Assembly: GCA_003453735.1 (NCBI GenBank)
Contig: DMNE01000502.1
Span: 20,068 to 32,918, forward strand
Length of the DNA: 12,851 nt
Direction: 5' to 3'
Source: Nitrospiraceae bacterium
GTDB lineage: Bacteria > Nitrospirota > Thermodesulfovibrionia > Thermodesulfovibrionales > UBA9159
The notes beneath the pieces are model-generated. The model saw only the letters and a list, made by a program, of their open reading frames with translations. It ran no database searches and was not told where the DNA came from. Each line of letters starts with the position of its first letter. Position 1 is the stretch's first letter. Positions 11,839-12,851 of the stretch are shown here, piece by piece. The position numbers were made by a program, and so were the translations under genes.

Positions 11839-11855
11839 TATAATTTTTAATTATA
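11839..11855. repeat. AT-rich palindrome over the trxA -10 and start site
   Basis: TATAATT-TTT-AATTATA is a perfect 7-3-7 inverted repeat. It contains the whole -10 hexamer (11855-11850 on the minus strand) and the predicted start site near 11843. It could be an operator, although A/T-rich promoter DNA gives such palindromes by chance. Confidence 0.35.
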
Positions 11856-11879
11856 GGGAGCGCCATGAACTTTTGTCAA
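11850..11879 (-). promoter_or_regulatory. consensus promoter of trxA
   Basis: On the minus strand: TTGACA (11879-11874), 18-base spacer, TATAAT (11855-11850); both hexamers are perfect. The predicted start is about 11843, giving a 22-base leader with AGGAGG. Confidence 0.75.
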
Positions 11880-11932: not shown

Positions 11933-11962
11933 TTGAAATGCAAAAAGAAAATCAGGTAATAT
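11933..11962 (+). promoter_or_regulatory. candidate promoter of thrS
   Basis: TTGAAA (11933-11938), 18-base spacer, TAATAT (11957-11962). An overlapping TATAGT (11960-11965) is closer to consensus but poorly spaced. The start would be about 11969-11972, leaving a leader of roughly 20 bases that contains GGAGG. Confidence 0.45.
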
Positions 11963-11975
11963 AGTGCCTGATTTT
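11948..11975 (+). repeat. inverted repeat around the thrS -10 element
   Basis: AAAATCAGG (11948-11956) and CCTGATTTT (11967-11975) are perfect inverse complements; three more pairs form beyond a one-base bulge (11945-11947 with 11977-11979). The ten-base centre holds the candidate -10. As DNA it could be an operator; as RNA, if transcription starts further upstream, a hairpin directly before the SD sequence. Confidence 0.45.
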
Positions 11976-11979
11976 TCTT

Positions 11980-11984
11980 GGAGG
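11980..11984 (+). promoter_or_regulatory. SD sequence that fixes the thrS start at ATT
   Basis: GGAGG lies 7 bases before the ATT at 11992, in the thrS frame. No ATG, GTG or TTG lies at a usable distance: the first in-frame ones are TTG 12025 and ATG 12028, 40 or more bases away. Confidence 0.6.
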
Positions 11985-11991
11985 TTCTGAC

Positions 11992-12851
11992 ATTAAGATA
12001 CGATATGCAGATGGCAGTGAAGAATTGATGTCCCTTGCTGAGATGGAGAAAAAGCTCAAGGAGCTCAATGCCATAGCCGTCAAGGTCAACGGCGATCTGA
12101 AAGATTGCTCGTCATTGAAGAATCTCGGAACTGACGACAGCGTAGAACCGGTCTCCCCTGATTCAGAGGAAGGAAGGGAAATTTATCGCCATAGCACCTC
12201 TCACATTATGGCACATGCGGTGAAAGAACTTTTCCCTGAAGCAAAACTTGCCATAGGTCCAGCAACGGAAGACGGGTTTTATTACGATTTCGATATAGAA
12301 AAACCGCTGTCACCCGAAGATGTGGTCAGAATAGAACAGAAAATGGAGGAGATCATACAGAGTGGTCATCCTTTTCACCGCACGGTCATGAAGCGGCAAG
12401 ACGCTGTCGCGCTCTTCCGCAAGACGGCGGAGGATTACAAGGTTGAATTGCTGAAGGAGATACCGGATGAGGAGATCTCCCTTTACGAAGAAAACGGTTT
12501 TGTGGATTTGTGTCGGGGCCCTCATGTCCCGTCGACCGGATTCATTAGGGCCTTCAAGCTCCTGAGCGTTGCGGGGGCGTATTGGCGGGGAAATGAGAAG
12601 AATAAAATGCTTCAACGCATTTACGGCACTGCGTTTTCAAAGGAGAAAGACCTCAAGGAATATCTGGCCTTTCTCGAAGAGGTCAAGAAGAGAGACCACA
12701 GAAAGCTGGGAAAGGATCTCGATCTCTTCAGCATCAGTGACGATATCGGTGCCGGGCTGATTCTGTGGCATCCCAACGGCGCGGTCATCAGACGGGCAAT
12801 AGAAGACTTCTGGAGGGAAGAACATGCAAAGGCGGATTACAGTATCCTCTT
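11992..12851 (+). CDS. thrS: threonyl-tRNA synthetase, 5' part (runs off window)
   Basis: Charges tRNA(Thr) and hydrolyses Ser-tRNA(Thr) in trans of synthesis. The first 286 codons are visible. A TGS-like N-terminal domain (about 1-60: KIRYADGSEELMSL, AVKVNGDLKDCSSL) is followed by the N2 editing domain. The editing-site residues are present: His67 and His71 in RHSTSHIMAHAV, Cys174 and His178 in VDLCRGPHVPSTG. GAYWRGNEKNKMLQRIYGTA (195-214) leads into the catalytic core, which begins at about 240 and continues beyond the window. The best start is ATT at 11992, 7 bases after GGAGG. The frame closes upstream at TAG 11962-11964, and the next usual start (TTG 12025 or ATG 12028) has no SD sequence and would cut the first TGS strand. 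The gene is divergent from trxA. The synthetase call is very firm; the start is inferred. Confidence 0.94.
   Translation, partial: MKIRYADGSEELMSLAEMEKKLKELNAIAVKVNGDLKDCSSLKNLGTDDSVEPVSPDSEEGREIYRHSTSHIMAHAVKELFPEAKLAIGPATEDGFYYDFDIEKPLSPEDVVRIEQKMEEIIQSGHPFHRTVMKRQDAVALFRKTAEDYKVELLKEIPDEEISLYEENGFVDLCRGPHVPSTGFIRAFKLLSVAGAYWRGNEKNKMLQRIYGTAFSKEKDLKEYLAFLEEVKKRDHRKLGKDLDLFSISDDIGAGLILWHPNGAVIRRAIEDFWREEHAKADYSIL

Follow-up and report, generated by a model that had tools for sequence, protein, structure and literature searches.

The window analysed here is a stretch of 12,851 nt (G000:C38:20068-32918) from a draft bin of 4.66 Mb (88.45 % complete, 5.53 % contaminated, 540 contigs). At its end lies the first part of thrS, encoding threonyl-tRNA synthetase (ThrRS), preceded by a Shine–Dalgarno (SD) motif, an in-frame stop codon and a promoter-like site (Table 1). 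A two-base NN gap was located inside thrS just past the window end, and beyond this gap the contig continued with the rest of thrS followed by infC, rpmI, rplT, pheS and pheT, with names assigned by sequence.

Table 1. Positions of the features surrounding the start of thrS in the window
Feature	Position	Strand	Basis
Promoter-like TTGAAA - 18 nt - TAATAT, possible thrS operon promoter	11933..11962	+	9 of 12 matches
TAG stop, in thrS frame, 5′ of thrS start	11962-11964	+	sequence read
Shine–Dalgarno GGAGG, 7 bases before thrS start	11980-11984	+	sequence; conserved in relatives
ATT (AUU), thrS start codon	11992-11994	+	sequence + start rules + relatives
thrS, threonyl-tRNA synthetase, cut by window end	11992-12851	+	Pfam tRNA_SAD

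The letters of the window matched the original prediction, which had read an SD followed after seven bases by an ATT start codon. The order was GGAGG, TTCTGAC, ATT and then AAG ATA CGA TAT GCA GAT GGC, and the open frame ran TGC CTG ATT TTT CTT GGA GGT TCT GAC ATT AAG ... GAA TTG ATG. The SD is strong and its spacing normal, and it was kept in relatives. From the upstream stop onward, no in-frame ATG, GTG or TTG occurred before a TTG at 12025, which was followed by an ATG at 12028. A CTG was present in the same frame at 11968, 5′ of the SD.

The promoter-like site ends 29 nt before the ATT. Such sites are expected by chance at ~0.7 per 300 bases, and three were found. Among 63 relatives, the best promoter-like site scored 9.3 of 12, compared with 8.0 in simple shuffles, and the distance from the end of the -10 element to the thrS start had a median of 38 nt (<50 nt in 43/63, at least 50 nt in 20/63). 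If the site in the window is used, the thrS leader would be ~20–25 nt, which is a guess. A perfect TTGACA-18-TATAAT promoter-like site was also observed on the minus strand at 11850-11879, for the divergent thioredoxin gene.

Post-transcriptional control of synthetase genes is exemplified by the ThrRS operator of Escherichia coli thrS and by T-box leaders, the former being a structured leader before the SD that is bound by ThrRS. No Rfam family was matched at gathering scores anywhere in the window, and on this basis a T-box leader and a known leader RNA before thrS were both rejected. For a translational operator of the E. coli type there was likewise no Rfam match, and the promoter-like site suggests a short leader, as predicted from sequence. 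The control proposed below would share with these systems a synthetase gene regulated post-transcriptionally, but it differs from them in the absence of an Rfam match in the window and in a leader that seems too short. The plainest place for control is the thrS start codon itself.

Start codons of thrS among relatives

Starts were assigned by mechanical rules, with ambiguous rows judged by eye, and many of the genomes were bins. The codons ATT, ATC and ATA (collectively AUH) were accepted as AUH+SD when located 4–11 nt behind an SD-like motif. The phylum, of Nitrospirota type, was assigned from named relatives and from the thrS tree. The same-order set, drawn from the window's own order, presumably Thermodesulfovibrionales, comprised 68 genomes (60 scorable 5′ ends of 61 genomes plus 8 further genomes). 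The outside set comprised 132 loci, consisting of 56 of 102 matching genomes from other classes of the phylum (L153-L208), 74 named loci (L038-L111, among them the Nitrospirota record L040) and two loci from the same class.

Comparison of orthologous thrS 5′ ends, whose alignment the original prediction had proposed as a check, indicated that ATT, ATC or ATA behind an SD was kept in most same-order relatives. AUH+SD was found in 61 of the 68 genomes, and the scanned frame was free of canonical codons in 29 of these but contained one in 32; eight of the 61 were ambiguous by eye (L009, L014, L031, L115, L134, L140, L141 and L151). The trait was not seen in seven of the 68. Six of these (L015, L017, L025, L130, L144 and L150) had canonical starts only, and the seventh, L016 from the window's own family, was undecided by the start rule, possibly ATG by eye, and entered the tree in the canonical state. 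In the thrS tree, six named records (L032-L037, with Nitrospirae or Nitrospira in their titles) fell inside the order, and for one of these the part of thrS that was compared matched G172 exactly. All six had AUH+SD, four without a canonical codon. The AUH start of thrS is thus clade-conserved (61/68 plus 6/6, with 7/68 not showing it). A thrS fragment from G002, outside the 68-genome count, also read by eye as GGAGG followed by ATT AAG ATA.

AUH+SD without a canonical codon occurred in 33 of 74 genes inside the order (29/68 plus 4/6) versus 0 of 132 outside. These counts bear out the AUU start of thrS first suggested from the window alone. AUH+SD beside a canonical codon was found in 22/132 outside loci as well as in the 32/68 inside, so the looser state alone is weak evidence. 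Canonical starts only were found in 109/132 outside loci. Of the two loci in the same class, L145 has ATG and L146 was the one outside locus with neither start type.

The thrS tree was a quick reconstruction from 113 proteins, with residues before ~50 left out and with part of the outside loci included. Same-order rows grouped at 93 % SH-aLRT, together with L145, L146 and the outside row L052. With 59 AUH and 45 canonical rows scored and nine ambiguous rows left out, at least eight changes of start state were counted, indicating that the AUH trait has been lost or gained repeatedly. A single gain followed by several losses would fit the tree, without being proved by it.

Identification of the thrS start codon

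A stricter SD rule was passed by 63 of the 74 thrS loci of the order, and the 63 AUH starts picked in this way were used to compare the possible start sites. In 48 rows of the TGS type, codons 2–9 after the AUH varied mostly at the third position (1.16, 1.13 and 1.65 bits by codon position), a pattern that was absent before the SD (1.86, 1.72 and 1.74 bits). This protein-coding constraint opposes a true start further downstream, at TTG 12025 or ATG 12028, which would give a shorter ThrRS. No canonical codon precedes these two in the open thrS frame, and Pfam was indecisive on the point because no TGS domain was called in the window ThrRS from either start. The position of the first NTG downstream of the AUH was scattered among the 63 relatives, from 4 to 74 codons. 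In the window, TTG 12025 had no SD by the mechanical rule and ATG 12028 had by eye no GGAGG-like motif ahead of it. With coding constraint 5′ of both codons and neither position conserved, a start at 12025 or at 12028, the latter named as an alternative in the original prediction, was rejected as highly improbable.

A start upstream at another codon, such as the CTG at 11968, would make the ATT an internal Ile codon. Outside the order, Ile is indeed often found near the equivalent place after an upstream ATG. Within the order, however, stop codons separate the SD from the AUH of thrS in L030, L114, L124, L133 and L149, and an in-frame stop lay within five codons upstream in 11 of the 63 picked starts. 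No NTG separated the upstream stop from the AUH in 41 of the 63, in 25 of which the next 20 codons or more were free of NTG as well, and the coding pattern described above does not extend before the SD. Codon choice also differed, as the start position was ATT in 42 loci, ATC in 15 and ATA in 6 (n=63), whereas internal Ile codons of the same thrS genes were 40 % ATA, 32 % ATC and 28 % ATT (binomial P=2.6e-10, relatedness ignored). The upstream reading was rejected because in relatives these stops interrupt the frame ahead of the AUH, and is even less credible than a downstream start. A sequencing or assembly error at the ATT, the former an alternative named in the original prediction, would find some support in the completeness, contamination and fragmentation of the bin and in the NN gap after the window, but can be dismissed almost entirely, since the same arrangement is conserved in many separately assembled relatives, including the single-contig genomes G010, G017, G020, G026 and G128.

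The TGS domain was judged missing where the match began only after ~residue 37 of the query. In ThrRS apparently lacking TGS, SD and AUH were kept in L021, L022, L027, L035, L114, L120, L127, L129, L135-L137, L143 and L149, and the residues behind them differed. In L025, L130, L144 and L150, also apparently without TGS, ATG was found instead of AUH. Together with L141 and L151, these loci place apparently TGS-less ThrRS in several families of the order.

Other members of the thrS operon served as controls. Among 36 loci given, rpmI started with ATG in 35/35, and rplT with ATG in 34/35 and GTG in 1/35. The pheS gene had NTG in 30/30 but no detected SD; it therefore tests the SD rule little, and rpmI and rplT were used instead. 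By comparison with relatives, the true start site of thrS in the window is a codon other than ATG, GTG or TTG. Judged from sequence, thrS in the window and in most of its order starts at AUU, with AUC or AUA in some relatives.

Non-canonical starts in infC and hflX

The original prediction had also directed attention to the start of infC beyond the window. This gene lies directly behind thrS and begins in the window's genome with GGAGG, six bases and then ATA AGT AAG GAC. The ATA (L002:2906-2908; contig 33905) follows the TGA that ends thrS by three bases, and the infC SD runs up to that stop. The identity of infC was confirmed by its IF3 domains in Pfam. Under an SD-based rule, the 74 same-order infC starts were ATA in 66, ATC in 6, ATT in 1 and TTG in 1. 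AUH was likewise found in 46/53 loci of the phylum's other classes, the remaining seven being without an SD, and in 50/56 named loci of other lineages, with four lacking an SD, one TTG and one ATG. As AUH is the expected behaviour of infC, this gene serves as a positive control. Within the same genomes, AUU was favoured in thrS and AUA in infC. The only TTG infC of the 74, in L124 (G010), accompanies a thrS whose ATT directly follows a stop codon, so the start types of thrS and infC do not always go together.

A complete relative, G017, was screened for AUH+SD starts without canonical codons. Over 1.2 Mb, three of 1036 gene-like ORFs were flagged (infC, hflX and one weak match), and a looser rule gave 29 matches. 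A wider rule applied to 2.0 of 2.37 Mb (1900 ORFs) gave 16 strict and 11 loose matches, with thrS of G017 among the loose ones because of an NTG five codons downstream. Among the screen matches, infC, hflX and thrS are those backed by sequence comparison. Two further ORFs, tsaE-like at G017:C1:1832261 (minus) and plsC-like at 310616 (plus), both named by eye, have possible ATA and ATT starts, respectively, and relatives were found for both.

HflX splits 70S ribosomes and is thus a sensible partner of IF3, and the HflX GTPase domains were found by Pfam. For the 33 same-order hflX loci (L299-L331), 29 had AUH+SD only, three had AUH+SD together with an NTG and one (L308) had ATT without a listed SD; the copy in the window's own genome starts with ATA (L315, G000:C286). 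Outside the order, loci from the rest of the phylum (L332-L353) comprised 21 in other classes (11 with AUH+SD only, eight with both, one ATG and one ATT without a listed SD) and a sole same-class locus, with ATG. For other lineages, 41 named genomes were searched and 37 matched, and 20 of 30 loci were viewed (L354-L373). By eye, AUH stood at the start, within ~15 codons, in 12/20, mostly Deltaproteobacteria by title, canonical starts were seen in 6/20 (L362, L364, L368 and L370-L372), and L357 and L373 were ambiguous. The AUH start is more widespread in hflX than in thrS.

Possible control by IF3

The best reading of these sequences is that thrS would be a new member of the IF3-discriminated start class, which includes infC, pcnB, sigR and ccpN. 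We consider it probable that thrS, starting at AUU, AUC or AUA, is subject to IF3, which would hold ThrRS low and couple thrS with infC. The start site of thrS, conserved in this clade and in many genomes without a canonical alternative, and the AUH start of infC were established by sequence comparison; the repression of thrS by IF3 and the homeostatic coupling are what we infer from known IF3 biochemistry. An IF3-sensitive thrS, as suggested in the original prediction, fits because infC behind it starts with ATA, because the hflX start is alike, and because AUU and AUA belong to the IF3-discriminated class (PMC5472188). In vitro, the full-length fraction obtained from AUU (CAU anticodon, fMet) is reported to have dropped as IF3 was raised (PMC10158994).

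In such a mechanism, the strong SD would recruit 30S subunits to a start codon whose match with the initiator tRNA is imperfect, this tRNA presumably inserting fMet at the thrS AUU. IF3 would reject such complexes, and ThrRS synthesis would be kept low. ThrRS synthesis would go up once free IF3 became scarcer in proportion to 30S subunits. With the ATA of infC under the same rule, thrS and infC, the two leading genes of the operon, would respond to IF3 in concert.

It is also conceivable, though unlikely, that the AUU is real but static, fixing ThrRS at a low and constant level, with IF3 varying too little to regulate. Non-canonical starts strongly cut synthesis in reporters (PMC13009471), and E. 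coli pcnB, whose translation is reported to be limited by its AUU (PMC1780047), offers a precedent for static attenuation. Against this, the partners infC and hflX are translation factors, and a chance set of weakly expressed genes is unlikely to look so; moreover, infC is autoregulated via such a start elsewhere (PMC5472188).

Under IF3-sensitive initiation, thrS is perhaps part of a small IF3 regulon. More tentatively, and in our view somewhat short of probable, IF3 may be a global regulator acting via the start codons of a regulon of infC, hflX and thrS, all of them AUH. The reach of this regulon would differ between its members, with infC nearly everywhere, hflX in much of the phylum and in several Desulfobacterota-like genomes, and thrS in this order. 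Were IF3 to drop in proportion to 30S subunits, the levels of IF3, of ThrRS and of HflX, the GTPase that splits ribosomes, would then rise together.

The closest known system is the autoregulation of infC by IF3, with AUU in E. coli, ATC in Streptomyces and AUA in Staphylococcus aureus. As in infC, thrS has an AUH codon behind a strong SD, in the same operon and with order-wide conservation. It differs from infC in that its product is a tRNA synthetase, so that control would be exerted by another protein rather than by autocontrol, and in that its AUH start occurs in one order and favours AUU, whereas that of infC is nearly general and favours AUA. E. coli pcnB, where AUU limits expression, resembles thrS as an AUU-start gene other than infC, but thrS is a neighbour of infC and its AUH is conserved order-wide. 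Streptomyces sigR also combines a non-canonical start in a gene other than infC with a strong SD and clade conservation; unlike thrS, it encodes a sigma factor, starts with GTC and has had its repression by IF3 shown by experiment (PMC5472188). S. aureus ccpN (AUA) and cvfC1 (AUU) share with thrS an AUH start and have an extended SD with genus-level conservation, but were found by ribosome profiling and reporters and have unrelated functions (PMC13009471). AUU starts have further been proposed for lepA in two species, with infC and pcnB given as the two shown cases (PMC1780047). Among the open-access matches listed, titles and abstract starts mentioned no AUH-type start of thrS or hflX, which is weak evidence.

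According to PMC5472188, annotation misses non-canonical starts of this kind. If the present reading is true, annotation that admits canonical codons alone would assign incorrect N-termini to both ThrRS and HflX in the lineages concerned. The thrS gene offers a simple test of whether IF3 controls any regulon beyond its own gene. An order-wide AUU, AUC or AUA start on a synthetase gene that neighbours infC, with a counterpart in hflX, would link the capacities for aminoacyl-tRNA synthesis by this enzyme and for ribosome splitting to how much IF3 is available.
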